64,000 nucleotides of DNA. It comes from Lepidostoma basale. Taxonomy: Eukaryota; Arthropoda; Insecta; Trichoptera; Lepidostomatidae. The stretch is taken from assembly GCA_022606425.2 (NCBI GenBank), contig JAHDVF020001353.1:992001-1056000 (forward strand), read 5' to 3'. A model generated the notes under the pieces. That model was given only the letters and a program-made list of their open reading frames with translations. It had not been told where the DNA came from and ran no database searches. Position numbers and translations under genes: made by a program. The number at the start of each line of letters is the position of its first letter. Position 1 is the stretch's first letter. Positions 2,029-63,545 of the stretch are shown piece after piece.

Positions 2029-2072
2029 GACAGCGACCGGTTTCGCCAGGCTCGCTGGCATCGACAGACCGG
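2029..2072 (-). ncRNA. Hammerhead-like motif, family HH-D
   Basis: On the minus strand the order is CUGUCGA (CUGANGA with A6 changed to U), one extra U, stem II GCCAG-CGAGC-CUGGC, GAAAC, CGG and UC, then GCUGUC. The segment at the stem III position is ACCGGU, which is self-complementary. Stem I can pair CGGU with GCUG using wobbles. The A6U change makes activity doubtful. Confidence 0.45.
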
Positions 2073-2326
2073 TGACACTATTGCAAACCGAGTACTTTAT
2101 ATACATACAGATCAGGGGTGGTAAACATAATTCTATACAAAAATAATCTTCATATGTTTTTGTAAAATTTACTGAATTTAATTTTTGGTATTTCAGGTAT
2201 TCAAGAGGATTAATATTCAATACAATGTATTTTAAATTTTATTATAGCATACATATTTTGATTTGATTTGATATTTATATAACGATTTGTGATGCGTATA
2301 ATAATAGTGTTTTGAAATTAATTAAC

Positions 2327-2645
2327 TAACTAACTAACTAACCATCACGCCATCTCCCCGAAAGGGTAGGCAGAAAGAATGGACTGTCACACTTTTACCG
2401 ATGCGGCACTCCATCCTTCTCTTTTCGCCCCGCGGGAGACGCGGTGTGATGGGTTGCGAACCTCATCGCCACCAATAGGCATCTCCCGCGCACACTTCGA
2501 TCGTCCAACACCCACAAAACAAATCTAAAACAAATAATATAAAATACAATGATATAAAATAAAATAACAAAATAAAAATTATTTAACACAGAATGTTATT
2601 TTTAGATGGTGCATATATTGTCTATTCAATTATTTAACCACATTA
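2327..2645 (-). mobile_element. SINE-T copy
   Basis: On the minus strand an AT-rich 5' part is followed by a GC-rich core (GGTGGCGATGAGGTTCGCAA and GCGTCTCCCGCGG). The last ~60 bases are those of LINE-T, up to GGCGTGATGGTTAGTTAGTT. An 11-bp duplication TGAAATTAATT lies at 2313-2323 and 2719-2729, so this copy and the small LINE-T piece at 2672-2716 entered together. Confidence 0.65.
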
Positions 2646-2671
2646 ATTTAACCACAGTTTTTCTTCTAATA

Positions 2672-2716
2672 ATCTCTTAGACGAATGTGTGGATACTCTG
2701 TGTATGATAGAGTGTA
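2672..2716 (+). pseudogene. Tiny LINE-T segment, inverted to SINE-T
   Basis: CTCTTAGACGAATGTGTGGA and the following 25 bases match the SLRRMCGYSVYDRV region of LINE-T on the plus strand. It is head-to-head with the SINE-T copy, inside the same TSD pair. This resembles the 5' inversions left by twin priming. Confidence 0.6.
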
Positions 2717-2729
2717 ATTGAAATTAATT

Positions 2730-3295
2730 TGTATATTTATATAGGGTTTTGAAATGTCAAACCTCAATTCTTATCTTATATTATGCAGCGTGGTCGCATC
2801 CAATATGGTGGTCCTCCTTTTTCATAAGATACCGCATAGCGACCCTGCTTGGAGCAAATATTTCATGGACCCAATCTCTTGTGCTATGAGGATATTATTT
2901 GTAAAATATCCTCCGAGAGGAACGCGGATACGAGGAATGGCAGTGGAGTGCCACATAAATTTCCTGTAATTATTTTTGTATGCAAATGAAGCTTAGAGTT
3001 TTCACGATACTCCAGTGAATTTTCAGTATGAAGGTCCCTAAATCAGATCACCGCTGCTTATCTGGAACAATTAAAACGTCTTTATTGTGTTAAAAACGAT
3101 TTTGTTTCGGCCAAGGAATGGGGCAGCTCATATTAAAAAATAGCAAATGGTCTAAGGAAAGGTCAAGTTGTTTGTACTCATTAATTCAAACACAGTTTTT
3201 CAACTTACTTATGAAGATTTTATATCAACACGTATTCTTCTTCTTCCGATGTCGAGTATTTAAGGGCTAAGAATAGTCTATTGTTTTGGCCGAAA
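2730..3295. other. Unassigned stretch
   Basis: A 71-codon frame at 2754-2969 (+) has no motif I recognise and no clear splice context. No repeat seen elsewhere in the window was identified. I cannot assign a role. Confidence 0.3.
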
Positions 3296-3430
3296 CACTA
3301 TGATTTCAACATTATTACTGTTAAAATTTAAAACACTGTTATAATATCACAATTTCTCTTTATTCACTGAGTGTCGCGACAGCTATTTCGCCAACCGATG
3401 TTGACATCCTCAGGTGCTACAATAAACTAA
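3276..3430 (-). repeat. HH-C repeat fragment
   Basis: It carries the outer segment TTTTGGCCGAAACACTATGA, then the TTTAAAACACTGTTATAATA segment and the HH-C core. The same order occurs at 15540-15690 and 63290-63545. Confidence 0.65.
3374..3422 (-). ncRNA. Hammerhead-like motif, family HH-C
   Basis: On the minus strand: CUGAGGA (a full CUGANGA match), an extra U, stem II GUCAAC-AUCG-GUUGGC (six pairs including one wobble), GAAA, UAGCUG and UC, with GCGACAC after the predicted cleavage site. Stem I is discontinuous, with outer UG/CA pairing beyond a mismatch, as in natural hammerheads with an internal loop. This is the best-preserved stem II in the family. Confidence 0.6.
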
Positions 3431-3628
3431 AGTTACAAATGAAAATACTTACTATTTTTTGGGCAAAAAACTCGTTATTGTTGTTAGTCATAGTAAAAAT
3501 TAAGTATGCGAAATCTGTTGACAATTTTACAAACAAATATAACAAAGGTGGGAAAAAAATAGCGATTAGAAGGGACAATTATACATACAAGAAATGAAAG
3601 GGTATTTATTGTCACTGTTAAAATTAAT

Positions 3629-4588
3629 AAAAGGTGTCAAACAAGGTTGCGTAATGTCCCCGTGGTTATTTAATCTGTATATGGACAATTGTATGAGAGA
3701 GCTGAAAGGGTTGGATGTAGGTGCCAAAATGAGCGGAGTGTCAGTAAGCTGTCTCTTGTATGCGGATGACGCTGTCCTACTTGCTGACAACGAGCATGAA
3801 CTACAAGTCCTAGTGAATTGTATGTATGAGGTATTCATGCGAAATGATCTGATGATGAATGTTAATAAGTCCAAGGTAATGATTTTTAAAAAGGAAGAAA
3901 CCACGACAGTCTGCAACATTAGCGTGAATGGTGAAAACTTGGAGCAAGTAGTTGAGTTTGTGTATTTAGGTAGTATGTTTACAAGAGATGGGAGAGTGGA
4001 AAGGGATATTGAAAGAAGGGTTGGGGCAGGTAACAAAGTGAATGGTGCACTTAAAGTTGTCATCGCAAACAAAAACCTATCCAAAAAAGCTAGAATGGCA
4101 GTGCACAATGGTGTTCTTCTACCGACCCTTATGTATGGAAGCGAAGCATTGAACTGGCAAAGGAAGGATGAAAGTAGAATAAATGCAGTAGAAATGAGAT
4201 CTCTTAGACGAATGTGTGATATTCTGTGTATGATAGAGTGTCGAATGAAAATATAAGAAGTGAATGCGGTGCGAATGATGGTGTCATGAACAAAATAATG
4301 AAAGCATCATTAAGATGGTTTGGACATATGGAAAGAATGAATGAAGAAAGAATGGTAAAAAAATTATATGTTAATGATGTAAATGGAACCAGAAATAGAG
4401 GAAGACCGAGGAAAACGTGGCACGATCAAATAAATCAAATATTGAATGTCGGCCGTGTGAGGAGTCAGAGAAATCGACGCGCGTGCATGACACGATGTAT
4501 GAATGTTGAGGAAGCGAGAGAAATATGTCAGGAAAGAAAGGTGTGGCAGTCCATTCTTTCTGCCTACCCCTTCGGGGAGACGGCGTGA
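3629..4588 (+). pseudogene. LINE-T reverse transcriptase C-terminal half, one frameshift
   Basis: This is the C-terminal part of a non-LTR (RTE-like) endonuclease/reverse transcriptase. In life it would copy the element RNA at a nicked chromosomal site. Visible in order: the GVKQGC..SPWLFN box, the catalytic LLYADDAVLLAD box (two adjacent aspartates), thumb-type FVYLGSMFTRDGR and DIERRVGAGNKVNGAL, then the MYGSE..NWQ, LRWFGHMERM and RGRPRKTWHDQI boxes and an ILSAYPFGETA end. About 320 codons remain; the endonuclease and fingers are lost. A one-base deletion near 4216, within the RRMCG..YDRVSN region, shifts the frame, so the rest is read from about 4226 in the next frame. RTE membership is inferred from the box order and the simple-repeat tail. 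Jockey-type naming in automated annotations is possible. Confidence 0.8.
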
Positions 4589-4606
4589 TGGTTAGTTAGT
4601 TAGTTA
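3629..4606 (+). mobile_element. LINE-T, longest plus-strand copy, with TSD
   Basis: A 978-bp 5'-truncated insertion flanked by the 12-bp duplication GTTAAAATTAAT (3617-3628 and 4607-4618). It starts inside the reverse transcriptase at GVKQGCVMSPWLFNLYMD and ends in (GTTA)n. The TSD shows that the preceding codons, from about 3594, belong to the target and not to the element. Confidence 0.85.
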
Positions 4607-4751
4607 GTTAAAATTAATTGGGTGAAGATGCTACAAATAATGTTATTATAAGCCAACACAATAAAAGTTTTTTTTTTTAACTGGCAGTAAAAGAAACTGG
4701 GTCAACAGGTATAAAATATGAGAATTTAAAGTGTAGGGAACAACAAGAAAA

Positions 4752-5565
4752 CTTACTAACTAACCATCACGCCGTTTCCCCGGAGGGGTAGGCTACGAGA
4801 ATGGAATGCCATACTGCTCTGTCCTAACTTATCTTTCTAACTTTCTCTACATTCACACATCGTAACATGCACGCTTGTCGATTTTACCGACTTCGAATGT
4901 GGCTACCTTTTAGTATTTGATTAATTCAGTCATGCCATGCTTTTCTTGGTCTTCCACGGCTTCTCTTTCTATTCACACTGCTTGAATGCAACATTTTAAC
5001 CATTTTTCTCTCGTTCGTTCGTTCCATATGTCCAAACAATCTCAGGGATCTTTTTTTTTTTTTTTACTGATGATGCAATCATCTGCCTAACATTCCTTCA
5101 TTTTTTCGTCATTCGGTATTCTATCATTTATCGTTTTCTCGCACACACCACAAAAACCTACTTTTTCAAAATACCTCATAAAATAAAAAAACGGTTATCT
5201 GATTTCTGGTGTCAGATGTAGCTCTCATGACTAAAAACATTGTCAAAGCGCCCTTGAGGTGAGCTATTCACGAAAACTGTGCTATACAAATTAGCCTAAT
5301 TATTATTATTATTATTACATTATTCTCAGTGATCTTATTTCCACGCCATTTATCATACTTTCATCATTTATTGCCAGCTCCAAGCTTCACTTCCATACAT
5401 AATGGTTGGCACTAGAACTCCGTTGTGTACTGCCATATTTGTTTTATTGGATATATTTCTGTTTGCAATGATGACTTACAGAGCGCTATTTATTTTATTC
5501 CCAGCACCGATCCTTTTCTCGATGGCTTTCTACATTTTTCTTCTCTTATAAACATGCTTCCCTTA
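4752..5565 (-). pseudogene. LINE-T fragment, split by a LINE-L tail
   Basis: The minus strand starts at the tail (TAACTAACCATCACGCCGT) and runs back to the IEKRIGAGN region near 5530, with many indels. The run from about 5130 to 5317 is foreign: it is a LINE-L 3' UTR ending in (ATT)n. Confidence 0.7.
5225..5318 (+). mobile_element. LINE-L 3' end inside LINE-T
   Basis: AGCGCCCTTGAGGTGAG, a diverged GGCGCT-like segment and (ATT)7 match the 3' ends at 13140-13205, 23403-23476 and 40990-41057. The left boundary is unclear and may extend to about 5130. Confidence 0.55.
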
Positions 5566-5644: not shown

Positions 5645-5812
5645 TTTATAAATTATAACACTGTTTTTTCCACTTACGTGTTTATTTTTCTCGGCATGTT
5701 TCGAAGGCTTACACCTTCATCATCGGGTGAACGATATAACGATGTATGCCTTCGAAATATGTCGAGAAAAATATACTCAAAAGTAGAAAAAACAGTGTTT
5801 TAATTCATAAAA
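5645..5812. repeat. HH-B foldback
   Basis: Two arms face each other: AACACTGTTTTTTCCACTT on the left and AAGTAGAAAAAACAGTGTTT on the right. The left arm has a complete core read on the minus strand (CCGAUGA, U, GAAGG..CCUUC, GAAAC, AUG, CC). Its cleavage site is GCC rather than GUC, and the right arm lacks the CNGANGA half, so both arms look inactive. Confidence 0.6.
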
Positions 5813-5869
5813 AATTCTATACAAATGTTCGTTTTTTTTTTGTTTTTCGAAAATTTGCTATACCATTCA

Positions 5870-7625: not shown

Positions 7626-7626
7626 A

Positions 7627-10625: not shown

Positions 10626-10684
10626 ACCTTTAAAATATTAATAAAATATATTTTTTTTATATGATATCAATAAACGAATTTATA

Positions 10685-10880
10685 TGGATTAAAACACTGT
10701 TTTTTCCACTTTTGAGTTTATTTTTCTCGACATGTTTCGAAGGCATTACACCTTCATCATCGGGAGAACGATATCAACAGTTTATATCGTTCTCCCGATG
10801 ATGAAGGTGTAAGCCTTCGAAACATGTCGAGAAAAATAAGCTCGTAAGTGGAAAAAACAATATTTTAATTCATATGAATT
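10685..10880. repeat. HH-B foldback, best copy
   Basis: Two nearly complete arms meet around 10780. Each arm has, on its own sense strand, GUUCUC, CCGAUGA, U, GAAGG-loop-CCUUC, GAAAC, AUG, UC and GAGAAAAAUA. The outer ends are AAAACACTGTTTTTTCCACT and its complement. Confidence 0.7.
10785..10833 (+). ncRNA. Hammerhead-like motif, family HH-B
   Basis: Stem I is UUCUC/GAGAA (five Watson-Crick pairs). Stem II is GAAGG/CCUUC with loop UGUAAG. Box one is CCGAUGA, with U4 changed to C. The GAAAC box is exact, and ACAUGU sits where stem III would be, followed by GUC. The mirror copy on the minus strand spans 10728-10776. Position 4 is the only departure from the core consensus. Confidence 0.6.
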
Positions 10881-10884
10881 CGTC

Positions 10885-20514: not shown

Positions 20515-20700
20515 CTTCTCTTTTTCTTTTTTATATACTTTGTATACACAACATTTACATTTAAAAAAATTTAATTACATAGACATGTTTCGGACGCCAG
20601 TCCTTCTTCAGTGATACATATTATAAAGATATATATTTAAAATATTATAAAATTGTTTTCATGATCTGACAGATGTCATAAAGATTTATTTTGAAACGTT
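20515..20700 (-). repeat. HH-F repeat
   Basis: A single-orientation repeat containing an HH core. In HH sense, TATAATATGTATCA precedes the core and TATGTAATTAAATTTTTTTA follows. No second copy of this family was seen in the window. Confidence 0.5.
20578..20618 (-). ncRNA. Hammerhead-like motif, family HH-F
   Basis: CUGAAGA is a full CUGANGA match. It is followed by one extra A, stem II GGAC-UGGC-GUCC (four perfect pairs), GAAAC and ACAUGU ending in GUC. Stem I pairing is not convincing. All the core bases I can score are consensus. Confidence 0.55.
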
Positions 20701-22739: not shown

Positions 22740-22990
22740 TTCCATAACGTAAAAAAATTGTTTCTTGAACAATGATGTAAAACTCCATAATTATAAATAT
22801 TTATGAAAAAAAGATAGTTTTCGGGGAGTTTTATTATAATATTTATGTACGACATGTTTCGCTCTTCTAAGGCATTATCAACATTTGATAATGCCTTAGA
22901 AGGGCGAAACATGTCATACATAAATATTATAATAAAACTCCTTGAAAACTCTCGTTTTTTCATACATATAAATAATAAAATAAAAATATT
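22740..22990. repeat. HH-A foldback
   Basis: Two arms face each other around 22873. Each has TTGATAATGCC, the UUAGAA(G) loop, GGGCGAAACAUGUC or a close variant, and ATACATAAATATTATAATAA. The outer ends are GATAGTTTTCGGGGAGTTTT and its complement. It is flanked by the TTGAACAATGATGTAAAACT segment common to HH-A copies. Confidence 0.7.
22884..22925 (+). ncRNA. Hammerhead-like motif, family HH-A (U3-A8 type)
   Basis: Box one is UUGAUAA: relative to CUGAUGA, C3 is U and G8 is A, which keeps the 3-8 pair as U-A. An extra U, stem II GCC-loop-GGC, GAAAC and ACAUGU ending in GUC follow. Stem I begins with UA/AU pairing. The mirror copy spans about 22849-22880 on the minus strand. Confidence 0.45.
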
Positions 22991-31440: not shown

Positions 31441-31675
31441 ATATATTCGCCTTCACTTTGTGTTGTGGATTCATATTTCAATAAGTATAATTACACTTGG
31501 TATTACAACACTTGTTTACACTTAACACAGACATGTTTCGGTCACAAGTAACCTTTATCAATGTTAAAATTGTGTACATTGATAAAGGTTACTTGTTACC
31601 GAAATATGTCTGTGTTAAGTGGAATAAAGTGTTGTAATAACAAGTGTAATTATATTTATTCAAATAATTATTCTC
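31440..31675. repeat. HH-G foldback, two full arms
   Basis: TTCGCCTTCACTTTGTGTTG flanks the left side. The arms meet around 31570. Each arm has UUGAUAA, A, GGUUA..(U)ACC, GAAA(C/U), AUGUC and UGUGUUAAGUG on its own sense strand. Confidence 0.7.
31575..31622 (+). ncRNA. Hammerhead-like motif, family HH-G (U3-A8 type)
   Basis: Stem I is ACA/UGU, extended by two wobble pairs. Box one is UUGAUAA, with a 3-8 U-A pair in place of C-G. Then come an extra A, stem II GGU..ACC, GAAA, UAUGUC and UGUG. The minus-strand arm (31524-31562) has GAAAC and the self-complementary ACAUGU. Within the U3-A8 class this is the family with the best stem I. Confidence 0.5.
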
Positions 31676-33433: not shown

Positions 33434-33870
33434 ATTTTGTTCTTGACGCTTTCGTTCGCACTGCGTTCACTATATTTATGGAAGCCTGTTTTAGAATATT
33501 ATTTTCGTCATGATGCTTTCATTCGCATTGCATTTAGTTATTATAGTCGCATTTAACACTTTATGTATATAAGCCTGTTTTCGAATATAATTTTGTTCGT
33601 GACGCCATCGTTCGCCCTGTGTTCAATCATTTTATTCGCATTTAACACTTTATTTATGGAAGCCTGTTTTAGAATATTATTTTCGTCATGATGCTTTCAT
33701 TCGCATTGCATTTAGTTATTATAGTCGCATTTAACACTTAATTAATATAAGCCTGTTTTCGAATATTATTTTGTTCGTGACGCCATCGTTCGCCCTGCGT
33801 TCACTCATTTTATTCGCATTTAACACTATATTTATGTAAACCTGTTTCCGAATTTTATTTTGGGAATGTA
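33434..33870 (-). repeat. 89-bp tandem array derived from LINE-T
   Basis: The landmark GCCTGTTT recurs at 33484, 33573, 33662, 33751 and about 33840, exactly 89 bases apart. Units alternate between two types (TTTTCGTCATGATGCTTTCA and TTGTTCGTGACGCCATCGTT), giving a 178-base higher-order repeat. The unit core resembles LINE-T around the VMNKI codons (TATTTTGTTCATGACACCAT). Confidence 0.8.
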
Positions 33871-34335
33871 TTGTATAATATGAGTATTTATGAACTGAGA
33901 ACGTATTAATATGTTTTTAATCAATTTCTATGGTTACATAAATCGTTTGATATTCGTATATTTGAGTATCCGTCCTCTGGACTAAAAAAATGAATATTTC
34001 AGTTCCATAGTATTTACCCTAGATATGCAAAGGTAAAATGTGTCTTGTAAGCTTCGCCGACATAGCTTTCCGTAAGTCAACATATTGACGTACAGGTTGA
34101 CCTGTTTCCGGTACAAAAAGGTTCGCATTCTTACGTTGACTTCGAACAAACGTCTAAAGTTAATAAGAATACCAAGCTGTTTCGCCGATGTGAGGTATGC
34201 TAGGGTGGGTGGAAATCCTTGTTTAACATTATAAATAATGAAAAAAATACATACATTAGAACTGGCAAAAGAAGCTTAAAAGTAAAATAAAAACTGTTAA
34301 AACAGCGGCAATGTCAAACGACAAAAGATGGTTTT
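33871..34335. other. Unassigned stretch
   Basis: No frame longer than a few dozen codons and no repeat partner recognised. Confidence 0.3.
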
Positions 34336-36532: not shown

Positions 36533-36775
36533 TCGACCTTCGTGGCAGAGTGGTAAGAGCTCTGACTTCCATACCGAAGGTTCCGGGTTCGATTCCCGGC
36601 GATGGCAGTGTGATTGTCACACTGTCTTTGGTCTGGTGTAGATCACGTGACAATAAAATGGTGATAGATGGGATATCACATGTCATGATAATCAATATAA
36701 TACCTGTTGTATGCAAGGAAAAAAAATGGAAATAGATAAGCTACCTATCGCATATCATTAGAATCAATAATTAAT
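36533..36775 (+). mobile_element. tRNA-derived SINE, copy 2, intact boxes
   Basis: A box TGGCAGAGTGG and B box GGTTCGATTCC are both consensus. The tRNA-like head is followed by the TGGCAGTGTGATTGTCACAC body and the ATGGGATATCACATGTCATG 3' region. This is the best promoter of the SINE copies seen. Confidence 0.8.
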
Positions 36776-37082: not shown

Positions 37083-37605
37083 AATTAACTTACTATCACG
37101 CCGTCTCCCCGGAGGGGTAGGCAGAAAGAATGGAACGCCACACTGTTCTGTCCTGACATACGTCTCTCGCTTCCTCTACATTCATACATCTTGTCATGCA
37201 CGCACGTCGATTTTTCCGACTCCTCACGTGACCGACATTCAATATTTGATTGATTTGATCGTGCCACGTTTTCCTCGGCCTTCCTCTATTTCTAGCTCCG
37301 TTCACACCGTTTACATATACCTTCTTTACCATTCTGTCTTCACTCATTCTTTCCATGTGTCCAAACCATCTTAATGACCCTTTTCTTATTTTGTTCATAA
37401 CACTTTCATTCGCACCACATTCACTTCTTATACATGCATTTGTCACTCTATCATATACAGATTTGCCACACATTCGTCTTAGAGATCTCATTTCTACTGC
37501 ATTTATTCTATTTTCATCCTTCTTTTGCCAGTTCCATGCTTCACTTCCATACATAAGGGTCGGCACAAGAACACCATTGTGCACTGCCATCTTAGCTTTA
37601 TGTTT
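37083..37605 (-). pseudogene. LINE-T 3' fragment, intact C-terminal frame
   Basis: From the tail back to MAVHNGVLVPTLMYGSEAWN the frame is open for about 168 codons: NWQKKDENRINAVEMRSLRR, MCGKSVYDRVTNACIRSECG, KGSLRWFGHMERMSEDRMVK, NRGRPRKTWHDQINQIL and VCQDRTVWRSILSAYPSGET. It is cut off at the 5' end at AKMAV. It is close to the copy at 44258-44965, so the two probably come from one subfamily. Confidence 0.8.
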
Positions 37606-37625
37606 CATGGAAATCAATGGATTAA

Positions 37626-38232
37626 CCCTTTCCTGCTGATTTTTTATTCTTTTAGGATTTTTTTTGCTATTTAATAAATGCAAATATTAACGACTAATGT
37701 AATTCATATAAAAAAATATATATATATATATCGATCGAAACATATAATAAAAAAACTATCTTCACTTCCCACTGATAATTGGTAGAATACCCATTGTACG
37801 TAAGAAATAAATATATACCTCATTTCACAATTTTTTTTTTATATTATGTAAAAAAAAACATTGAAATGGTGTTGGTAAAAATAAATTACATTCCCACTTA
37901 TGAAATATGAAATACCCTGAAGTTCAGTATCATACAGTGAAATAAATGTCTATGGAACTCAAATCATTCTTCATCATCCTTATTTACTTGATTGTAATGT
38001 CCAAAAATTAACTTATCAGACGCACGACACTCAAAAACAAAAAATCACGTCTTTTTTAATTCACCTGCCAGTTAAAAGTTCAACCAATAAAGCTGGTAAT
38101 TTTTTTTATCGTAATACCCAATAATGGCGCTAGATGACTGAAGTGAATAAACTTAGGAAACGTAATTCCCACTGATCTTTTTAGGGCAATTTCGAAAATG
38201 GGAATACGTATACCCACCCCCCCACGAAAGGG
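37626..38232. mobile_element. Possible piggyBac-type MITE
   Basis: CCCTTTCCTGCTG at the left faces CCACGAAAGGG at the right (TIR CCCTTTC). The flanks are TTAA on the left and TTAT on the right, as if one TTAA target site had mutated. Direct motifs of the type TTCCCACTGAT recur inside. It has no transposase. A short (TA)n run lies at about 37713-37731. Confidence 0.4.
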
Positions 38233-38885: not shown

Positions 38886-38929
38886 TTATTATTATTAAAT
38901 ATATTTGTACTTTGGAAATTGAAATTAAC

Positions 38930-39112
38930 TTTGTTTAATCCACAAAATATTAAAAAAAACACGACATGTTTCGGAGGATATGTACCTCCATCTTCAGGTG
39001 TAAAAATATAATATAAACTAACCAAAGAAAGACTAATATAAAAAACGCATTTAAAATTCGATACAATAATTTCACTTAAAAACATTTACCGTTAATTTCA
39101 AAATTTAAATTA
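38930..39112 (-). repeat. HH-H repeat
   Basis: A single-orientation repeat with a complete HH core. It is followed, in HH sense, by GTGTTTTTTTTAATATTTTG. Only one copy was seen in this window. Confidence 0.55.
38958..39008 (-). ncRNA. Hammerhead-like motif, family HH-H
   Basis: Stem I is ACAC/GUGU (four pairs). Box one, CUGAAGA, is a full CUGANGA match. Then an extra U, stem II GGAGG-loop-CCUCC (five pairs), GAAAC and ACAUGU ending in GUC. Of all copies here, this one satisfies the most hammerhead constraints at once. Confidence 0.65.
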
Positions 39113-41059: not shown

Positions 41060-41460
41060 CTAGCCAATCCAAAGGATTGAGAGTAAACATAAAATGTTCT
41101 AATGTATGAATCTATCAAGGATGTTTTACAAATATCGGTCCGTAAGATAAAGTGACGCTCTTCCATCACAAGGTACATTCTTGTCCTTGTTATGTGTCCA
41201 TAATTTCACTTCTTACCCTCCCTGGGTGCGCTCCGTCCGCAGTTCCTTATCTCCACAAGTTAAGGGATGCCGTAAACCTCCCCTAACTCACAGAACCTGT
41301 ACCCACTCATACAGGAGACGGAAGATTCTTCGACAGTCGATTCATCGGCAGTTCACCGAATGTAATCAATTCGATCAATTTGCCTACGAAATACACATCC
41401 ATATATTATTAGTCTCTGAATTTTTATATAATAAACTCGTAAAAATATAAATAAAATATT
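41060..41460. other. Unassigned stretch
   Basis: An 89-codon plus-strand frame at 41181-41450 is Arg/His/Ser-rich without motif. I cannot support a gene. Confidence 0.25.
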
Positions 41461-41461
41461 T

Positions 41462-41695
41462 ATTGTTTCTTGAGCAATGATGTAAAACTCCATATAAATT
41501 ATTAATATGTATGAAAACGATAGTTTTCAAGGATTTTTATCATAATATTTATGTATGACATGTTCGCCCTTCTAAGGCATTTAAACATTTTGAAAATGCC
41601 TTAGAAGGGCGAAACATGTCATACATGAATATTATAATAAAACTCCTTGAAAACTATCGTTTTTCATACATATTAATAATAAATAAAATACTGCT
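41462..41695. repeat. HH-A foldback
   Basis: Arms meet around 41585. The right arm is TTTTGAAAATGCCTTAGAAGGGCGAAACATGTC on the plus strand, with box one UUGAAAA. The left arm lost one T of GTTTCG and most of box one. The outer ends are ATGAAAACGATAGTTTTCAA and its complement. Confidence 0.65.
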
Positions 41696-41896: not shown

Positions 41897-41940
41897 TAAC
41901 TGGTTTCGCTCCCGCCGGAGCTTCGTCAGGGTTACAAAAT
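41897..41940 (-). ncRNA. Hammerhead-like motif, family HH-E
   Basis: CUGACGA is a full CUGANGA match. It is followed by an extra A, stem II GCUCC-GGCG-GGAGC (five GC-rich pairs), GAAAC, then CAG and UU. The cleavage triplet would be GUU, and the stem III segment is not a perfect palindrome. Stem I is short (AAC/GUU with an offset). Confidence 0.5.
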
Positions 41941-44257: not shown

Positions 44258-44965
44258 TAACTAACTAACTAACTTACCATCACGCCGTCTCCCCGGAGGG
44301 GTAGGCAGAAAGAATGGAACGCCACACTGTTCTGTCCTGACATACGTCTCTCGCTTCCTCTACATTCATACATCTTGTCATGCACGCACATACATTTTTC
44401 CGACTCCTCACGTGACCGACATTCAATATTTGATTGATTTGATCGTGCCACGTTTTCCTCAGCCTTCCTCTATTTCTAGCTCCGTTCACGCCGTTTACAT
44501 ATACCATCTTTACCATTCTGCCTTCACTCATTCTTTCCATGTGTCCAAACCATCTTAATGACCCTTTCCTTATTTTGTTCATAACACTTTCATTCGCACC
44601 ACATTCACTTCTTATACTTGCATTTGTCACTCTATCATAAACAGATTTGCCACACATTCGTCTTAGAGATCTCATTTCTACTGTATTTATTCTACTTTCA
44701 TCCTTCTTTTGCCAGTTCCATGCTTCACTTCCATACATAGGGGTCGGCACAAGAACACCATTGTGCACTGCCATCTTAGCTTTTTTGGATAGGCTTTTGT
44801 TTGCGATGACAACTTTAAGTGCACCATTTATTCTGTTGCCTGCCCCAACCCTTCTTTCAATATCCTTCTCCACCCTCCCATCCTTTGTAAACATACTTCC
44901 TAAATAAACAAATTCCTCCACTTGTTCCAGATTTTCACCATTTACACTAATGTTGCAGACTGTCG
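44258..44965 (-). pseudogene. LINE-T copy, intact C-terminal 228 codons
   Basis: From NISVNGENLEQVEEFVYLGS and MFTKDGRVEKDIERRVGAGN to the ILSAYPSGETA end the frame is open. It covers the thumb and the full C-terminal tail, but not the YADD catalytic box. The open frame extends a further ~90 codons upstream only because it reads the antisense of the neighbouring copy at 45015-45275, so the 315-codon frame 44280-45227 is a chimera. It has a (GTTA)n tail. Confidence 0.8.
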
Positions 44966-45014
44966 CGATAAATAAAAATAAAATTCTGATACATAAAAAT
45001 AAAGTTTTATGATT

Positions 45015-45275
45015 TAACAGTTTAAGAATGGTTATGAAAGTATACATTAATGATGTAAATGGGGTACGGAGTCGAGGCAGACTGATAAAAACATGGCATG
45101 ACCAAATTAAACAAATTTTAAAGATTGGTAATGTTAGAAGTCGGAGGAATCGACGTGCGTGTATGACTCGTATGAATGTGGAGGAAGCTAGAGAGGTTTG
45201 CCAGGATAGAGTATTGTGGCGGTCCATTCTCTCTGCCTACTACTGCGAGGAAACGGCGTGATGGTTTGTTTGTTT
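45015..45275 (+). pseudogene. LINE-T 3' end, head-to-head with the previous copy
   Basis: VMKVYINDVNGVRSRGRLIK, TWHDQIKQILKIGNVRSRRN and VCQDRVLWRSILSAY, with tail GGCGTGATGGTTTGTTTGTT. One codon of CMTRCMNVEEA is lost. It belongs to the same diverged subfamily as 39880-40505. Confidence 0.75.
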
Positions 45276-47121: not shown

Positions 47122-47660
47122 ACTAACTAACTTACTAACCATCACGCCGTCTCCCCGAATCGACGACCTTCGTGGCCGAGTGGTAAATGCCACCCCGAAG
47201 GCTCCGGGTTCGATTCCCGGCGAGGGCAATGTGATTGTCACACACTGTCCTTGGTCTGGTGTAGAATTCACAAATGGCGATAGATTACCTACCTATCACA
47301 TGTCACCAGAATCACTATGATAGCTATAATATCCTTTACATCGATTTGGCTCATGCTGTCATGATGTAAAGAGCGATTCTACAAAATAATAATAATAATA
47401 ATAATAATTGGAAGGCAGAAAGAACGAACTGCCATACTTTTCTTTCCTGACATACTTCTCTCGATTCCTCAAAATTCATATATCGTGTCATGCACGCACG
47501 TCGATTTCTCAGACTGCTCATGTGGCCGACATTCAATATTTTATTTATTAGATCGTGCCACGTTTTCCTGGGTCTTTCTGTATTACTAGTTCCATTTACA
47601 TTGTTAACATATACTTTTCTGTCATTCATTCTTTCCATGTGTCCAAACCATCTTAATATT
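47122..47660 (-). pseudogene. LINE-T copy split by a SINE
   Basis: The tail part (47122-47156) and body (47409-47660) are separated by a full SINE. The body reads GHMERMNDRKVYVNNVNGTS, RPRKTWHDLINKILNVGHMS and EESREVCQERKVWQF, with a frame of about 90 codons. Confidence 0.75.
47157..47408 (+). mobile_element. tRNA-derived SINE, full length
   Basis: A tRNA-like head (TGGCCGAGTGG A box, GGTTCGATTCC B box), body GGGCAATGTGATTGTCACAC, 3' region ATTACCTACCTATCACATGT and ATCGATTTGGCTCATGCTGT, ending AACAAAATAATAATAATAAT. It serves as the reference copy for the fragments at 8388, 8820, 17936, 21505, 36397 and 62452. Confidence 0.85.
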
Positions 47661-48630: not shown

Positions 48631-49910
48631 GTTCCTTACATATGAAATTGGCGTTTGTATGGGAGGAACATAAAGTTGATTTTTTTCAAATATAATATAT
48701 TTATTTAATCAAAGTATGTACCATTGCTATCTATGCACTTTTGCCATCTCATAGGTAGTTCATCGATCCCTTTACTAAAAAAAACATTCGGACGGGAATC
48801 AATAAAATCTTTTAAGTCGGTTTGGACTGCCCCATCGGAGTTGAATTTTTTCCCTTGCAAGAAGTTATCCAAATTTCGAAAAAAATTGTAATCTGTTGGG
48901 GCAAGGTCCGGAGAGTACGGTGGATGTCTTAGACATTCCAATTGAAGCTCTTCTAATTTGGTAGCCGTCTGTTGTGCAGTGTGTGGTCTAGCGTTATCAT
49001 GAAGCAGCAGTGGCCTAGAGCGATTAACCAGCCTCGGTTGTTTAGCAGCTAGCTTTTCCATCATGGTTTGCAGTTGCTGACAATAGACATCTGCCGTAAT
49101 CGTCTGGCCAGATTTAAGAAAGCTGTAGTGAACGACACCAGCACTAGTCCACCAAACGCTCACAAGTAACTTTTTTGGAGTCAATTTTCGCTTGGGGCAT
49201 GGTTTGGCTGGTTCGGCAGGGTTCAGCCATTGCGATGAGCGCTTCCGATTATCATACAGGATCCACTTTTCATCACAGGTAATGATTCGATTCAAAATCC
49301 TTTCATTATTGTGCCAGTTGAGTAATGCAACGCGGCAGTCAACGCGCGTTTGTAGATTTGCTTCACTCAATTCGTGAGGTACCCACCTTTCAAGCTTTTT
49401 CACCTTCCCAATTTGCTTCAAGTGGATTAAAACGGTTTAATCACTAACACCGCAGCCTGCAGCTAACTCGGACGTGGTTTGCGATGGATCCGCTTCCACA
49501 ATAGCCTTCAATTCTTCATTATCAACTTTGGTCTCCGGCCGTCCACAGGGCTTGCTCTGGAGGTCGAAATTTCCAGAACGAAAACGTTGGAACCAAAAAC
49601 GCACAGTGTTTTCTTTTGCGGCACCGTCCCCATAAACATCATTAATCTTTCGAGCCGTTTCTGCAGCACTGGTGCCACGATGGAACTCGTACTCGTAAAT
49701 AACGCGATATTTCAAGTTTTCCATTTTGTAAACTGAGTGAAGCAAAGAAAAAAAACAATTGAGGAAAAAACAAATGAATTATAATTTCCGAAACACAAAT
49801 ACTTGAGTAAATAGCTGTATAAATTTGAGTTTGGAATTCTTAACCAAAGAGAAGATATTTGAGATCAAAGTTGCCAGTACGGCAAAACGCCAATTTCATA
49901 TGTAAGGACC
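48631..49910 (-). mobile_element. mariner element, nearly intact
   Basis: A 1,280-base element with about 28-base TIRs (CCTTACATATGAAATTGGCG on both ends, 48631-48658 and 49883-49910) and the expected TA duplication (48629-48630 and 49911-49912). The size and layout are standard for mariner. Confidence 0.9.
48705..49724 (-). pseudogene. mariner transposase, one in-frame stop
   Basis: A cut-and-paste transposase that binds the TIRs and excises the element. The frame starts at MENLKYRVIYEYEFHRGTSA. An N-terminal pair of helix-turn-helix regions (TVRFWFQRFRSGNFDL, then DPSQTTSELAAGCGV) is followed by the WVPHEL linker. The catalytic core has ITCDEKW (D1), LLHDNARPH (D2) and LAPTDY (D3). There are 34 residues between D2 and D3, the D,D34D signature. 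It ends MRWQKCIDSNGTYFD. The length, 339 residues, is normal. The only lesion I can see is TAA at 49437-49439, after GVSD, with no shift. Residues around it resemble the cecropia-type mariners that include human Hsmar1. Readthrough would be needed for function, so the copy is probably inactive but young. Confidence 0.88.
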
Positions 49911-50604: not shown

Positions 50605-50634
50605 ACTCTCAATCATTTTAAATAATAATCAAAT

Positions 50635-50890
50635 AAAACGATGTTTTTTAACTACTTCCACTTTTGTCTTTATTTAGACAGCGATCGGTTTCGCCAGGCT
50701 CGCTGGCATCGACAGACTGGTCCATCGGCAGACAGACTGGACTGACCAGTCTGTCGATGCCCGCGAGCCTAGCGAAACCGGTCGCTGTCTAAATAAAAGT
50801 GGAAGTAGTTAAAAAACATCATTTTATTTAATTACTATTTAAAATGAATTTCCATCAAGAGATTTCAGTAAAATCATTTGATTATCTCAA
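50635..50890. repeat. HH-D foldback
   Basis: Arms meet around 50730. Outer flanks TAAATAATAATCAAATAAAA and its complement match the copy at 1765-2095. The left arm is the cleaner one (GCCAG..CUGGC stem II); the right arm has GCCCG..CUAGC. Confidence 0.7.
50681..50728 (-). ncRNA. Hammerhead-like motif, family HH-D
   Basis: CUGUCGA (A6 changed to U), an extra U, stem II GCCAG-CGAGC-CUGGC, GAAAC, CGAUC and GCUGUC. In this arm the palindrome ACCGGU has become ACCGAU. The plus-strand arm (50747-50793) keeps ACCGGU but has a weakened stem II. Confidence 0.45.
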
Positions 50891-51049
50891 TCATTTTGTT
50901 TGACCATATTTTGCCTTAGTTTAAATTCAATTAACTGTTTATTGTATTTGTGGTAGCATGTAATTGGCTTTATTTATTATTTTTCCCAATGTTTCTTAAT
51001 TAATATATTGATCGCGGTATGCTGCCCTTACTGAATAAATAAGTGCCAT

Positions 51050-52650: not shown

Positions 52651-53186
52651 AGAGAGGTAGCTCGGGGCAGTTGACTTTTGACCTGACGGGAAGCGGTCGC
52701 TTTCGGTATTAAATTCAGTGGGTGTTTGTTGTTTTGATTATCAAGAACTTCATTTTATTTTGTATACAAGTATAGTGGTACGAGGGGTGCGGCGTTTGCA
52801 GATTTAAAAATACTATAGAATCAGTGTTCCTGAGCTGATCGACGGAAAGCTAAGTCTAGAATTAAGAATTTATATTTCAGGAAATTGGAACGTATGCGTT
52901 CGGCTTACTCCATGATTATACTATGCTTACGTTTATATATTACATACATGTACCTAAATATATATATATATATATATGATATATCGATACCTTTCCTATA
53001 CTGCACGTAATATAGTTCACTAACACTCGGGCTAACGCCTCGCGCCCGAACAAGGTACTCACTAACTCATCGAATACTGAAATCTTAGTTATGGACATGT
53101 AGCGTTCTAACAAAATTTGCCATCTTCTATATAAATAAACATATAAACTACGACCCATGCAAATTATGCTACATAAATATGGTTAA

Positions 53187-53468
53187 CTGTTGATGAATGA
53201 AGACAGTTAGGAGAGGTTGGGATCGCGCGCTTCGGGACCCCACCGAAAGACGAAATATAAGGTAGTATGGTGAAAGACCCTGCTATCTGTCTATTGGTGG
53301 AGGTTGTCTCGAGGGTGAGTGGACCGACTGCTGATGAATGAAGACAGCTAGGAGAGGTTGGGATCGCGCACTTCGGGACCCCATCGAAAGACGAAATATA
53401 AGGTAGTATGGTGAAAGACCCTGCTATCTGTCTATTGGTGGAGGTTGTCTCGAAGGTGAGTGGACCGA
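53187..53468 (+). repeat. 141-bp tandem duplication inside the LTR
   Basis: TGATGAATGAAGACAG occurs at 53191 and 53332. Both units contain GACCCCA(C/T)CGAAAGACGA and GGTGGAGGTTGTCTCGA. They differ at only a few sites, and the same differences appear in the 3' LTR. Confidence 0.8.
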
Positions 53469-58156: not shown

Positions 58157-58188
<32 letters not shown>

Positions 58189-58840: not shown

Positions 58841-60763
58841 TGTGATGGTATTGAACCATCGTAGAGAGAGATACGTGAATTCAGATGTACGAAAATAAAT
58901 TCAAATGACTAGAAAATATAACACCTAACCAAGTGGGATGGATGTAGTGGTGCGGGAAGCAGAGGGGGACGAGGGGGAAGATTTGGGGATGGGTTTGGGG
59001 CGCGGGGAGCGGGGAAGGGTAGTGGGCCAGGGAGAGAGGTAGCTCGGGGCAGTTGACTTTTGACCTGACGGGAAGCGGTCGCTTTCGGTATTAAATTCAG
59101 TGGGTGTTTGTTGTTTTGATTATCAAGAACTTCATTTTATTTTGTATACAAGTATAGTGGTACGAGGGGTGCGGCGTTTGCAGATTTAAAAATACTATAG
59201 AATCAGTGTTCCTGAGCTGATCGACGGAAAGCTAAGTCTAGAATTAAGAATTTATATTTCAGGAAATTGGAACGTATGCGTTCGGCTTACTCCATGATTA
59301 TACTATGCTTACGTTTATATATTACATACATGTACCTAAATATATATATATATGATATATCGATACCTTTCCTATACTGCACGTAATATAGTTCACTAAC
59401 ACTCGGGCTAACGCCTCGCGCCCGAACAAGGTACTCACTAACTCATCGAATACTGAAATCTTAGTTATGGACATGTAGCGTTCTAACAAAATTTGCCATC
59501 TTCTATATAAATAAACATATAAACTACGACCCATGCAAATTATGCTACATAAATATGGTTAACTGTTGATGAATGAAGACAGTTAGGAGAGGTTGGGATC
59601 GCGCGCTTCGGGACCCCACCGAAAGACGAAATATAAGGTAGTATGGTGAAAGACCCTGCTATCTGTCTATTGGTGGAGGTTGTCTCGAGGGTGAGTGGAC
59701 CGACTGCTGATGAATGAAGACAGCTAGGAGAGGTTGGGATCGCGCACTTCGGGACCCCATCGAAAGACGAAATATAAGGTAGTATGGTGAAAGACCCTGC
59801 TATCTGTCTATTGGTGGAGGTTGTCTCGAAGGTGAGTGGACCGAACTTCGAAAACCCCTAATAGGGTGATGGCCAGGTTCATGGGTTTGAATCCCCAGGT
59901 CCACTGATTAAGGGTTGGGAAGTAGGTCGTCTGGTTACCAGACGATCCTGCTGTGGAGCAGTGGAGAAAAATCATCAGTCTGACGAAAAGACTGGTTCAA
60001 CGCGATACTAACACTATTATATCCCAGTTATCCCCCACAACTCCTTATATACTTAATATATTATATTTTGACACTGAATTGTTATATAACCTGTGCCTTT
60101 CAGGAACCTGTTCTTTATTGCATCATTATTACATTACGCTCTGATTTTAATTACTGTACATCGTATTTGTTCCAAATTATTTGTGAATGTTTCTTCCAGG
60201 GCTGCCACATTTTCTAGAGATAATATTCTGAATTATATTCTGTAAACTTAGAGATATTTTAGGTTGTTTGGTTTAGATGTTCCTAGGAAATATTGAGTGA
60301 CATATAGTTTGATTACACGTGGGTTTGTCAGGATTGCTTAGAATATTCGGAAGGGTTAGGAACGATTAGCTTTAGAATGAAATTATCAGTAATCGCCAAA
60401 TAAAAGGACTTGGATTACATCGGTCATAACGAAGGGTCATACGGTATTATTTCTAGACGATCACGAAGGCCAACTCGCGTAAGGTAAAACACCTGTAAGC
60501 TCCGTACAGGTGGATGAAGAGGGAATGACTGGAGGAAGCTCCACCATTCGCGGAGGAAGGTTAGGAGGGATTCTGCTTAGGTTCATCGTGGATAGGGCAT
60601 TACACCACATTTGGTGCCGTGACCAGGATTAATTAATTCTTCACGTGTGTAAATCGATTCCATCACATTTGGTGCCGTGACCAGGATGGGTCATCACAGT
60701 GATGATGACCACCAGGAAGGATGAAGGCTGGGTTACCATCGGGGACCAGCTCATTTCACCACA
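58841..60763 (+). repeat. 3' LTR
   Basis: It matches the 5' LTR base for base wherever I compared them, apart from three fewer TA units in the (TA)n run near 59341. It ends CACCACA and is followed by the AGCT duplication and the continuation of LINE-T (AGCTTCACTTCCATACC). Confidence 0.85.
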
Positions 60764-60808: not shown

Positions 60809-60861
60809 TAAAGGCCCATTCCCATATACTTGTTATTCCATATGGTCTTCTTGAGACAACC

Positions 60862-60950
60862 TGATATTTTTAAATATATAAATATTAATCATTTTAATGT
60901 CTGCTATGAAATTTATGAACAGAAGTTCATTTGCAAACCATGAAAATATA
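60862..60950. repeat. Direct repeat, left copy (LINE-T flank)
   Basis: It matches 61961-62047 with about six differences in 74 bases of core (TATAAATATTAATCATTTTA to GCAAACCATGAAAATA). The pair brackets the LINE-T copy at 60951-61960. Confidence 0.75.
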
Positions 60951-61960
60951 GCTAACTAACTAACCATCACGCCGTCTCACCGAAGGGGTAGGCAGAAAGA
61001 ATGGACTGCCACACTTTTCTTTCCTGACATATTTCTCTCGCTTCCTCAACATTCATACGTCGTGTCATGCACGCGCGACGATTTCTCTGACTCCTCACAT
61101 GGCCGACATTCAATATTTGATTTATTTGATCGTGCCACGTTTTCCTCGATCTTCCTCTATTTCTGGTTCCATTTATATCATTAACATATAATTTTTTTAC
61201 CATTCTTTATTCATTGATTCTTTCCATGTGTCCAAACCATCTTAATGATCCTTTCATTATTTTGTTCATGACACCATTATTCTCACCGCATTCACTTCTT
61301 ATATTTTCATTCGACACTCAATCATACACAAAGTATCCACACATTCGTCTAAGAGATCTCATTTCTACTGCATTTATTCTACTTTCATCATTCTTTTGCC
61401 AGTTCTATGCATCGCTTCCATACATAAGGGTCGGTAGAAGAACACCATTGTGCACTGCCATTCTAGCTTTTTTGGTTAGGTTTTTGTTTGCGATGACAAC
61501 TTTAAGTGCACCATTCACTTTGTTGCCTGCCCCAACCCTTCTTTCAATATCCCTCTCCACTCGCCCATCCTTTGTTAACATACTTCCTAAATAAACAAAT
61601 TCATCCACTTGTTCCAGATTTTCACCGTTTACACTAATGTTGCAGACTGTCATGCTTCCTTCTTTTTCGAAAATTTTGGACTTTTCATTCATCATCAAAT
61701 GGTATCGCTTGCATACCTCATACATACTAGACACCAGGGCTTGCAGTTCGTGCTCGTTGTCTGCAAGTAGCACAGCGTCGTCCGCATACAACAAACAGCT
61801 TACTGACACACCGTTCATTTTTGCACCTGCTTCCAACCCTTTCAGCTCTTTCATACACTTGTCCATATATAGATTAAACAACCATGGAGACATTACACAC
61901 CCCTGTTTGACACCTTTATTGATATCAAACCAGGCTGTAAGATCCCCAATTACTCTGACA
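60951..61960 (-). pseudogene. LINE-T copy with catalytic box, three nonsense codons
   Basis: Minus strand: RVIGDLTAWFDINKGVKQGC, VMSPWLFNLYMDKCMKELKG, the catalytic LLYADDAVLLADNEHELQAL, then FVYLGSMLTKDGRVERDIER. A TAG replaces the Trp after YGSDA. Further on come a TGA after MCGYFVYD and a TAA in ERINE.RMVKK. I saw no frameshift, so the copy has decayed by point mutation only. It ends in a short tail (GGCGTGATGGTTAGTTAGC). The endonuclease domain is absent. Confidence 0.82.
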
Positions 61961-62047
61961 CTATATTTTCAGTATATAAATATTAATCATTTTAATTTCT
62001 GTTGTGAAATTTATTAGCAGAAGCTCATTTGCAAACCATGAAAATAA
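61961..62047. repeat. Direct repeat, right copy (LINE-T flank)
   Basis: Partner of 60862-60950. See the left copy for the match. Confidence 0.75.
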
Positions 62048-62049
62048 TG

Positions 62050-62450
62050 TTATTCTAGTATATAATATATGATTGCCTTAACAGTTATTCGTTTCACTCT
62101 CCGCAAAACCGATAAAGCATCTCTAGCCCTCTCCAGACAAGCTTCTCCCAGTTTTGCATCTTGTTTATATTCTGCTCTGCTCCACGTTTGGACCGGTGCA
62201 ATTTCCTACCTCGGAATAGTTTTCTCCGGAATGCGCCCAATATATTGAATTCGATTGATTCCCGAACCTTTCTTCCGTGCTCCAACGGAATATTCCACCC
62301 TTTTATCATTTTCCAATATTACAACCTTTGTATAATTCATCCCTTATACTAAAACATCGAACAAGTGTGAATATACAGCATTTAAATTTACAAAAATGGT
62401 TCAAAGTACAATTAATGAGGTAGATTTGATAAAGTCCATTGTTATTATTA
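62050..62450. other. Unassigned stretch
   Basis: Frames of 71 and 63 codons on opposite strands (62094-62352) have no motif and no repeat partner. Confidence 0.25.
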
Positions 62451-62451
62451 T

Positions 62452-62838
62452 TATTATTATTACTTTGTTGAATCGCTCTTTACATCATGCCAGCATGAGC
62501 CAAATCGATGTAAAGGATATTATACAATAGCTATCATAGTGATTCTCATGACATCTAATGCGTTCCTGGTACTTTGTTGTATTTTTATAATATTTTACCT
62601 GTACTTAATAGATGCCATAAACATTTTCCTGATTGTAATGTCTATTGAGTTAATAAACTGATTTGATTTGATTGATTTGATTTGATTTGACATGTGATAG
62701 GTAGCTAATCTGTCACTGGAATTCTCACGCCAGACTAAAGACAGTGTGACAATCACACTGCCGTCGCCGGGAATCGAACCCGGAACCTTCGGGGTGGCAG
62801 TCAATGCATTTACCACTCGGCCACGAAGGTCGTTATGG
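62452..62838 (-). mobile_element. tRNA-derived SINE with nested LINE-K end
   Basis: On the minus strand: a consensus A box (TGGCCGAGTGG), B box (GGTTCGATTCC) and the full 3' part with (AAT)n. The 133-base LINE-K end (62555-62687) interrupts it. TGACAT at 62549-62554 and 62688-62693 is the likely TSD. Confidence 0.8.
62555..62687 (+). mobile_element. LINE-K end, very short insertion
   Basis: CTAATGCGTTCCTGGTACTT to (GATTT)n. It contains only 3' UTR, matching 19145-19265. Confidence 0.7.
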
Positions 62839-62894
62839 GTGAAACACTATGATACCTCAACATTACAAATTGTTAAATTGTAAAACTCTGTTTT

Positions 62895-63150
62895 TTCTTC
62901 TTCTTCGTCTTCTTCACTTTTGATAGACTCAGGAGTCTGTTATTTCAGGCGGGTCCTCTTGAGACGCTGAACTCCAGCTTTCTCTCCACCGTTTCGGGGG
63001 TCTTTCTGGTCGGCGTTGTCCGTTTGGCGTTCCATGGAGAGCTATGTATGGTATTCTATTTGAGCTCATTCTTTCTACATGTTGATGCCAGTATCGCCGT
63101 CTGTGACGTCCCCATCTGAACACATCTTCGACCTCGCAGATTTCTTGTCG
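62895..63150 (-). pseudogene. LINE-G C-terminal fragment
   Basis: The minus strand encodes RWGRHRRRYWHQHVERMSSN, a TPNGQRRPERPPKRWRESWS box and the SASQEDPPEITDS end, then a (GAA)n-type tail. The 64-codon frame is open. It is the best-preserved copy of this family here. Confidence 0.65.
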
Positions 63151-63182
63151 GATGTTATTTGTGTTTTCACAATTTTATTTTT

Positions 63183-63545
63183 ATTTTTCACGACAGCTAT
63201 TTCGTCAACCTATGTTGACATCATCAAGTGTTACAATATGTGATTTGATATATCTTAGTCGAATTTGTAGAAAATATTATTTTTTCACTGTTAAAATTTA
63301 AAACACTTATAATATTACAATTTCTTTTTATTCACTGAGAGTGTCGCGACAGCTGTTTCGCCAACCGATGTTGGCATCATCAGGTGTTACACAGTTTATT
63401 GTAACACCTGATGATGCCAACGTCGGTTGGTGAAACAGCTGCCGCAACTTTCTCAGTGAATAAAAATAAATTTTGATATTATACCAGTGTTTTAAATTTT
63501 AACAGTAATAATGTTGTGGTATCATCGTGTTTCGGCCAAAACAAT
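63183..63545. repeat. HH-C single copy plus HH-C foldback
   Basis: 63183-63240 is one minus-strand core with box one UUGAUGA. 63290-63545 is a foldback whose arms meet around 63396, with outer ends TTAAAATTTAAAACACT and CGGCCAAAACAATGG-type sequence as at 3276 and 15540. Confidence 0.7.
63341..63396 (-). ncRNA. Hammerhead-like motif, family HH-C
   Basis: CUGAUGA exact, an extra U, stem II GCCAAC-AUCG-GUUGGC (six perfect pairs), GAAAC, ACAGCUGU ending in GUC, then GCGACAC. The facing plus-strand arm (63401-63448) has stem II GCCAAC-GUCG-GUUGGU but GCC at the cleavage site. The difference between arms (A/G in the loop, C/U at the stem base) leaves stem II pairing intact. Confidence 0.65.

Follow-up and report, generated by a model that had tools for sequence, protein, structure and literature searches.

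Introduction

Minimal type I hammerhead ribozymes have reportedly been described from Penelope-like elements (PLEs), by Cervera and de la Pena in 2014 and by Luense et al. in 2017. Here we analyzed a stretch of 64,000 nucleotides from the caddisfly Lepidostoma basale (assembly GCA_022606425.2, contig JAHDVF020001353.1, positions 992,001 to 1,056,000 of the forward strand; G000:C457:992001-1056000 in our index), hereafter the window. It holds many small repeats that share one hammerhead-like design: a box, one extra base, a paired stem II, GAAAC, a short spacer and UH. Families were inventoried in the window and in ~240 kb of further sequence (loci labelled L0xx), and genome-wide searches covered the 769-Mb assembly. 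We consider it quite probable that the repeats are terminal units of Penelope-like retrotransposons, together with short derivatives, inserted by two-sided target-primed reverse transcription.

The closest described systems are compared below. In PLEs, minimal hammerheads combine a CUGANGA/GAAA core with a palindromic stem III loop and hardly any helix III, and occur as thousands of dispersed copies, some in the pseudo-long terminal repeats (pLTRs) of PLEs (PMC7761336, PMC6466107). The units described here resemble them in each of these respects. They differ in that most sites carry an extra base before stem II, where known alignments show at most one or two such bases (PMC10085705), in that four groups have a changed box, and in that the dispersed copies are mostly arms of head-to-head insertions.

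The element PAc (Poseidon, Anolis carolinensis) carries a hammerhead at the junction of pLTR and open reading frame (ORF), which cleaves only when the protein is present (PMC11167929). In vitro, both strands of AT-rich targets are cut and extended, reverse transcription starts internal to the RNA, and two start sites bound a "tail" of 30-40 bp; RNAs with mutated hammerheads insert like normal ones (PMC11167929). Our units, as interpreted below, would share the junction hammerhead, the internal start with two sites, the extension of both strands and the AT-rich targets. The PAc cut, however, lies 26 nt inside the frame, whereas the cut predicted here lies some 50-70 nt before the ATG, and the bulk of the material here consists of short non-autonomous units.

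Pen2a of Adineta vaga has an inverted, shorter pLTR at its 5' side, a tail on one pLTR, first codons within the pLTR, a 9-bp target-site duplication (TSD) and trans mobilization through the pLTRs (PMC3846280), all of which have observed or proposed counterparts here. Antisense self-priming is the preferred account of its inverted pairs (PMC3846280). Copy numbers are very low there, in contrast to the thousands of stripped units here. Metazoan retrozymes are likewise small and non-coding with a type I hammerhead, but are described as having circular RNAs and forming tandem repeats (PMC7229834), the latter a layout not seen among our units.

Results

Head-to-head insertions with unequal arms

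The sequence read contains ten multi-copy groups (C, B, D, E, F, G, H, I, J and K), C being divided into subfamilies C1 and C2, and three further types present once each (L012, L031 and L057). The sequence-only reading, an earlier inspection of the window letters, had counted eight families, a number to be corrected. It had also overlooked that the copies are mostly arms of head-to-head pairs. In group C, 72 of 116 copies form 36 such pairs, against 3 tail-to-tail and 5 same-strand arrangements. Across the ten groups an inverted partner lies close upstream of 71 of 118 units, compared with 31 of 300 random places.

The two arms of a pair are usually unequal. In C pairs one arm ends near +85 to +116 (short) and the other at +128 or beyond (long); the short arm stops just before an ATG, and the long arm continues for ~42-47 nt more. 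Of the 26 C pairs that could be classified, 23 have this short-plus-long arrangement (13.2 on average after shuffling; the observed value is reached in a fraction of 5e-5 of 20,000 shuffles). So, with no shuffled control, do all ten independent D insertions, from which a D pairing 3.6 kb apart at L016 was excluded. The long end coincides with the query end in both the C and the D search. Some C arms are 5'-truncated.

Target duplications of 8-14 bp flank part of the short-plus-long insertions. A TSD score of at least 8 was obtained for 10 of 35 C pairs, compared with 2.7% when the flanks were shuffled, and D insertions often have repeats of 11-16 bp (no shuffled control). One D insertion of the window, at 50607-50897, is enclosed by a perfect 13-bp TSD, and a C1 pair has a 10-bp direct repeat, ATTATTTTTT, close to both outer ends:

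50607..50619, left 13-bp TSD of the D insertion, TCTCAATCATTTT
50620..50721, minus strand, short arm of the D insertion, core at 50689-50715, stopping just before the ATG position
50745..50884, plus strand, long arm of the D insertion, to +140 (query end), within what would be the first PLE codons
50885..50897, right TSD, a perfect second copy of TCTCAATCATTTT
63356..63383, minus strand, family C1 core of the short arm (arm ~63285-63391, ends +98/+100)
63408..63435, plus strand, family C1 core of the long arm (arm 63393-63553, to +145)

A larger example at L071 is a single insertion with a perfect 13-bp TSD, in which two 5'-truncated PLE copies stand head to head. Its arms are 99.8% alike over 1,433 nt; their inner ends differ, beginning ~0.9 kb apart in element coordinates, and are joined at a few shared bases.

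Partner arms also have private variants in common: 21 against 5.7 in shuffled pairings (16 pairs) and 18 against 8.0 (12 pairs), values reached in 0 of 2000 shuffles. This count covered 28 of the 36 pairs, mixed-subfamily pairs and those with fewer than 45 shared positions being excluded. By mean identity (0.838 and 0.835), the short arms are not a lineage apart from the long ones. A single C copy out of 116 begins no more than 1 nt from the predicted cut, which is no excess, so there is no sign that cleaved RNA was inserted. A 1.5-kb inverted C element in L022 was considered as a foldback transposon and rejected; by eye it is a C pair split by a CR1/Jockey-like fragment.

Link to Penelope-like elements

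Searching the genome for GIY-YIG domains gave at least 62 matches at E up to 0.001. An open 747-aa frame with RVT_1 (1e-13) and GIY-YIG, both above cut-off, was found at L069 and L070, with D units at both ends, inverted and with their hammerhead 5' sides inward. It probably lacks its first part, as its nearest full-length relatives are mostly ~810 aa long. Among its best matches, the named PLE proteins are those of moths, butterflies, beetles, locusts and a psyllid. Ten further GIY-YIG matches were examined on their downstream side: a D unit follows four and an H unit two, while the other four have no hammerhead unit within ~830 bp downstream. The association with PLEs proposed in the sequence-only reading is thus borne out for D, at both ends of a PLE, and for H, 3' of two GIY-YIG matches.

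The units themselves point the same way. An ATG located 83-109 nt past the start of the box, and some 50-70 nt beyond the predicted cut in long copies of several families, opens a frame in part of the rows. The frame begins MNFHQEIS in 5 of 11 D rows, MEFHREL or MQFHSENA in 2 of 6 B rows, MKFHYY in 1 of 5 H rows, MNPQHKV in 2 of 14 F rows and in MKFN/MEF style in 3 of 12 K rows; the 3' end of C, translated by eye, reads MLKYHSVSAKTMDY. None of the three I rows has it, and rows lacking it are short, truncated or decayed arms. Full-length PLE proteins start MEFHQVPT, MFHREPTA or MDFRKITP, and by eye the unit N-termini are alike. Since the long arms carry an ATG followed by PLE-like first residues, the unit most likely corresponds to the junction between pLTR and ORF start of a PLE. 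Most copies would then be short non-autonomous derivatives that keep little besides the terminal unit, and the earlier description of apparently non-autonomous repeats suits them.

The motif in the window and the genome

A strict scan for the motif found 5 sites in the window and none in 12 dinucleotide shuffles; with one mismatch allowed, 11 sites compared with a mean of 0.08. The motif is real and beyond chance. In a scan allowing up to one mismatch, 12 of 20 window rows have the hammerhead design; the remaining 8 were discarded as chance matches or overlapping registers. Among 16 two-mismatch rows, 3 are true members, of groups K and F (22885 +, 31561 -, 41590 +). Besides the two pairs listed above, the window contains:

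2041..2067, minus strand, family D core with box CUGUCGA (unit -20 to +77 at 1989-2087); D positions 65 to 140 occur a second time at 1767-1842
3386..3413, minus strand, family C core, CUGAGGA with GAAAU (arm 3273-3432, reaching the long end at +144); probably family A of the sequence-only reading
5699..5726, minus strand, family B core, CCGAUGA (inverted partner arm 5743-5813, plus strand)
10735..10763, minus strand, family B core, left arm of a head-to-head pair (arm 10669-10777)
10795..10822, plus strand, family B core, right arm of the same pair (arm 10781-10882)
20588..20611, minus strand, family F core, CUGAAGA, stem GGAC/GUCC (unit 20516-20635)
22885..22909, plus strand, family K core, UUGAUAA (arms 22757-22898, minus, and 22868-22964, plus)
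31536..31561, minus strand, family F-like core, UUGAUAA (inverted partner upstream; the ATG at +87 reads MNPQHKV)
38969..38997, minus strand, family H core, CUGAAGA, stem GGAGG/CCUCC (unit 38907-39017; an inverted partner was searched for nearby and none found)
41590..41614, plus strand, family K core (arms 41457-41603, minus, and 41590-41678, plus)
41904..41929, minus strand, family E core, CUGACGA, stem GCUCC/GGAGC
63200..63227, minus strand, family C2 core, UUGAUGA with GAAAU

Genome-wide, the pattern CTGATGAN{8,30}GAAAC matched 16,100 + 16,035 times (32,135 in all), against 344 + 322 (666) for the reversed control pattern.

The CUGANGA box and GAAA are kept in the consensus of C1, C2, E, F, G and H. 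A changed box was found, in a two-mismatch scan, in all 8 D, all 3 I and all 12 K copies and in 5 of 6 B copies. It reads CUGUCGA in D, CAGAAGA in I, UUGAUAA in K and CCGAUGA in all three window copies of B; one B-like copy, at L028 5818, has the canonical CUGAUGA. Group D is abundant: with core positions 6 and 7 left open, its pattern has 3,038 + 3,110 matches, 6,148 in total. A6, which is part of the conserved hammerhead core, occurs in none of the 100 D matches listed (93 CTGTC, 6 CTGTT, 1 CTGCT). Of 157 scanned sites, a set that includes chance matches, 140 have the extra base ahead of stem II; a hammerhead unit at L031 235 (+) has no such base. In a family G copy at L026 593 (-), the spacer could pair as a 4-bp stem III (CTAC/GTAG), and this copy is possibly a less reduced hammerhead.

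The common design proposed in the sequence-only reading therefore needs amending. Most cores do carry the one additional base, GAAA(C) and a short spacer to UC or UU, but the CUGANGA-type box that each family was said to have is replaced in B and D, and also in two further groups, I and K. With all D, I and K copies and five of six B copies so altered, its description of the window as holding many such ribozymes goes too far.

RNA structure

The same reading had quoted six stem II pairs that change on both sides together, and all six were located in the D, B, F, H, E and C cores, with related cores at 3386-3413 and 63200-63227. When 33 sites representing 13 groups (C1 and C2 separate) were aligned by structure, 95.2% of stem II cells proved to be paired, compared with 55.2% in shuffles, in agreement with the predicted covariation, in a test made partly circular by the choice of every site for at least four stem II pairs. 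In this alignment 74 cells are altered on both sides; pairs changed on both sides number 4, no excess over shuffles. Where no stem was required in choosing sites, at least 4 of 5 stem II pairs form in 41 of 55 distinct strings drawn from the genome-wide pattern matches, compared with 20% for shuffled letters. Stem I, a pairing the earlier reading had missed, was not used for choosing sites: 83 of 112 pairs form, against a mean of 47.7 and a maximum of 68 in 20,000 shuffles. This test used 28 of the 33 rows, five without a G-U-H spacer end being dropped, and its pairing rule misparsed L012. C1, K, L057 and some single copies show weak stem I pairing. For the group consensuses, 40 of 48 pairs form in stem I (mean 21.4) and 59 of 60 in stem II (mean 33.2).

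Between GAAA and UH, 10 of 12 groups have a self-complementary spacer (CATG, CCGG, CTAG, CAGCTG or CG), J and L057 being the two exceptions; C1 and C2 count here as two groups, and L012 and L057 are single copies. Such a spacer permits a shared stem III in a dimer (PMC6466107). The layout reads as a PLE-type minimal type I hammerhead, with an open stem I, a paired stem II and a very short stem III; stems I and II covary, and the palindromic stem III loop is suited to action as a dimer.

Model searches and folding were less uniform. The Rfam hammerhead models, proposed earlier as a check, gave no window match at the gathering threshold or at E up to 10, and in 11 other loci one weak match (L031 HH9, 19.3 bits against a threshold of 52); none is usable. 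Minimum free energy folds of seven consensus stretches recovered stems I and II for B, G, F and H, with additional pairs running through the core in B, G and F; E has an alternative stem I, and C1 and D fold otherwise. Fold z-scores were -3.9 for B, -2.7 for G, -2.3 for E, -1.8 for F, -1.7 for C1, -1.0 for H and -0.6 for D.

Neighbouring sequence

Many 5'-truncated elements with TTAG-type tails and a GGGGTAGGCAGAG stretch, which we take to be RTE-like, lie in the window (3594-4588, 37096-37683, 44280-45227, 60949-61893 and others), and hammerhead units often adjoin them. The units were considered as 5' ends of RTE-type non-LTR elements and this was rejected: the RTE pieces vary between copies, and D and H units adjoin PLEs. 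RTE matches in the unit annotation list stem from flanking DNA in the queries and were ignored.

Three Rfam tRNA matches slightly above threshold (36536-36607 +, 47166-47228 + and 62759-62830 -) have a GGTTCGATTCCCGGC box in common and look like a tRNA-derived short interspersed element. A transposase frame of 238 aa at 48705-49421 (-) is presumably mariner-like. A 141-bp tandem pair occurs at 53186-53468 and again 6.4 kb away at 59562-59844, the first units being 100% identical, and a tandem array with a period of 89 bp occupies 33468-33912. The best GIY-YIG match of the genome, L072, was rejected as a PLE; by eye it reads as bacterial UvrC. Its 1.64-Mb contig (C102) also has bacterial-type frames for a dicarboxylate-type symporter, a FecR-like and a RidA-like protein (by eye), and would represent an endosymbiont or a contaminant within the assembly.

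Discussion

Proposed insertion mechanism

We propose that PLE protein acts in trans on the short non-autonomous units. Both strands of an AT-rich target would be cut ~8-14 bp apart, and each target end would prime reverse transcription within the RNA interior. One start site would lie just before the ATG and give the short arm; the other, 42-47 nt further, would give the long arm. The two cDNAs would then join head to head. Canonical-core ribozymes probably cut multimeric or read-through transcripts as dimers. As the predicted cut falls some 50-70 nt upstream of the ATG, an RNA cleaved there would still be translatable.

Ribozyme cleavage does not seem to be needed for insertion. The D core should be inactive or slow, because A6 is replaced and A6 belongs to the conserved core; D has nevertheless been amplified and sits on an open PLE frame. 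Natural hammerheads with altered core bases can still cleave (PMC10085705). A broader proposal, plausible but tentative and short of what we would call probable, is that PLE insertion is obligatorily asymmetric, with two RNA start sites flanking the ATG and nearly every insertion composed of a short and a long arm. Short pLTR-ORF junction RNAs would suffice as templates, and the ribozyme, dispensable for insertion in vivo as the D core suggests, would serve RNA maturation.

Several observations weigh against this account of PLE units inserted by two-sided priming. PLE frames were found beside D and H only; B, C, E, F, G and K are tied to PLEs by their architecture and, in some copies, an ATG tail, and I and J by the motif. 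L069 and L070 have more than 1.4 kb of left flank in common and were counted as one insertion, and L069-L071 showed neither a complete 5' end nor direct (tandem) pLTRs; these copies appear 5'-truncated. An inverted partner is rare in F (3 of 14), H (0 of 3) and I (0 of 3). Two C pairs are short plus short and one long plus long, 10 of 36 were unclassed, and among the 35 testable for a TSD 14 have none and 11 score 3-7. An arm is closest to its own partner (rank 1) in only 4 of 40 cases, which age differences can explain, though they do not prove it. Finally, PAc start sites are the same on both strands in vitro, whereas most pairs here have one of each, so the short-plus-long rule is not demonstrated in PAc.

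Alternative explanations

Head-to-head pairs could instead arise if reverse transcription of an antisense PLE template primed itself (snap-back), the model put forward for the Penelope of Adineta vaga, where head-to-head is also the commonest orientation and palindromes lie at the junction (PMC3846280). Many C junctions, being small gaps between near-full arms, would suit this. A fold-back should, however, produce equal outer ends and one shared inner point. Instead, 23 of 26 C pairs and all ten independent D insertions have outer ends that do not match, and the L071 arms start ~0.9 kb apart at inner positions; we regard self-priming as unlikely. The palindromic layout, the TSDs in part of the copies and the high copy numbers would also fit DNA transposons or miniature inverted-repeat transposable elements. 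A transposase would then have moved the pairs as terminal inverted repeats, and their ends, rich in hairpins, would resemble hammerheads only incidentally. This reading is already largely refuted and is the least probable of those considered: the two ends are mostly unequal inverted repeats, 5'-truncated arms occur, the frame between D units encodes reverse transcriptase and GIY-YIG, and the cross-family covariation of stems I and II is not demanded of ends that act as DNA.

Metazoan retrozymes, non-autonomous elements with circular RNAs, match the units in size (150-450 bp), low GC and type I hammerheads, and PLE helpers have been proposed for them (PMC7229834, PMC7761336). They are described as tandem repeats, whereas C copies stand head to head 36 times and on the same strand 5 times; long arms of several families keep a PLE frame start, and copies do not start at the cleavage site, all of which makes this origin very improbable. 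That the folds are fossils, with catalysis lost in all families and the core shared by descent, is a more serious objection, if still a rather doubtful one. The changed box of D, I, K and most B copies speaks for it, as do the 6,148 matches of the D pattern without A6 among the 100 listed, the D units on an open PLE frame, and the normal in vitro insertion of hammerhead mutants of the Anolis PLE (PMC11167929). C, E, F, G and H, on the other hand, retain box and GAAA though their stems and flanks have diverged widely, which looks like selection on the core between bursts of amplification.

Significance

PLE hammerheads, their action as dimers, inverted pLTRs and tails are already known. As far as searches of the open-licence literature show (the founding papers lie outside it), the numerous families of stripped inverted pairs, the near-strict short-plus-long rule in genomic insertions and the large changed-core family are new. 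No open-licence paper was found that joins Penelope, hammerhead and butterfly or Lepidoptera, and those naming Penelope together with twin priming appear to concern other subjects.

The in vivo role of PLE hammerheads has been termed a mystery (PMC7761336), and the origin of PLE head-to-head inserts is unsettled (PMC3846280, PMC11167929). Insertion products of one class abound in this genome; they show unequal arms and TSDs and include families with canonical as well as changed cores, so that counts and simple cleavage assays can be used to test the hammerhead role and the head-to-head origin. If insertion is indeed obligatorily asymmetric, nearly every PLE insertion in the genome would consist of one short and one long arm.

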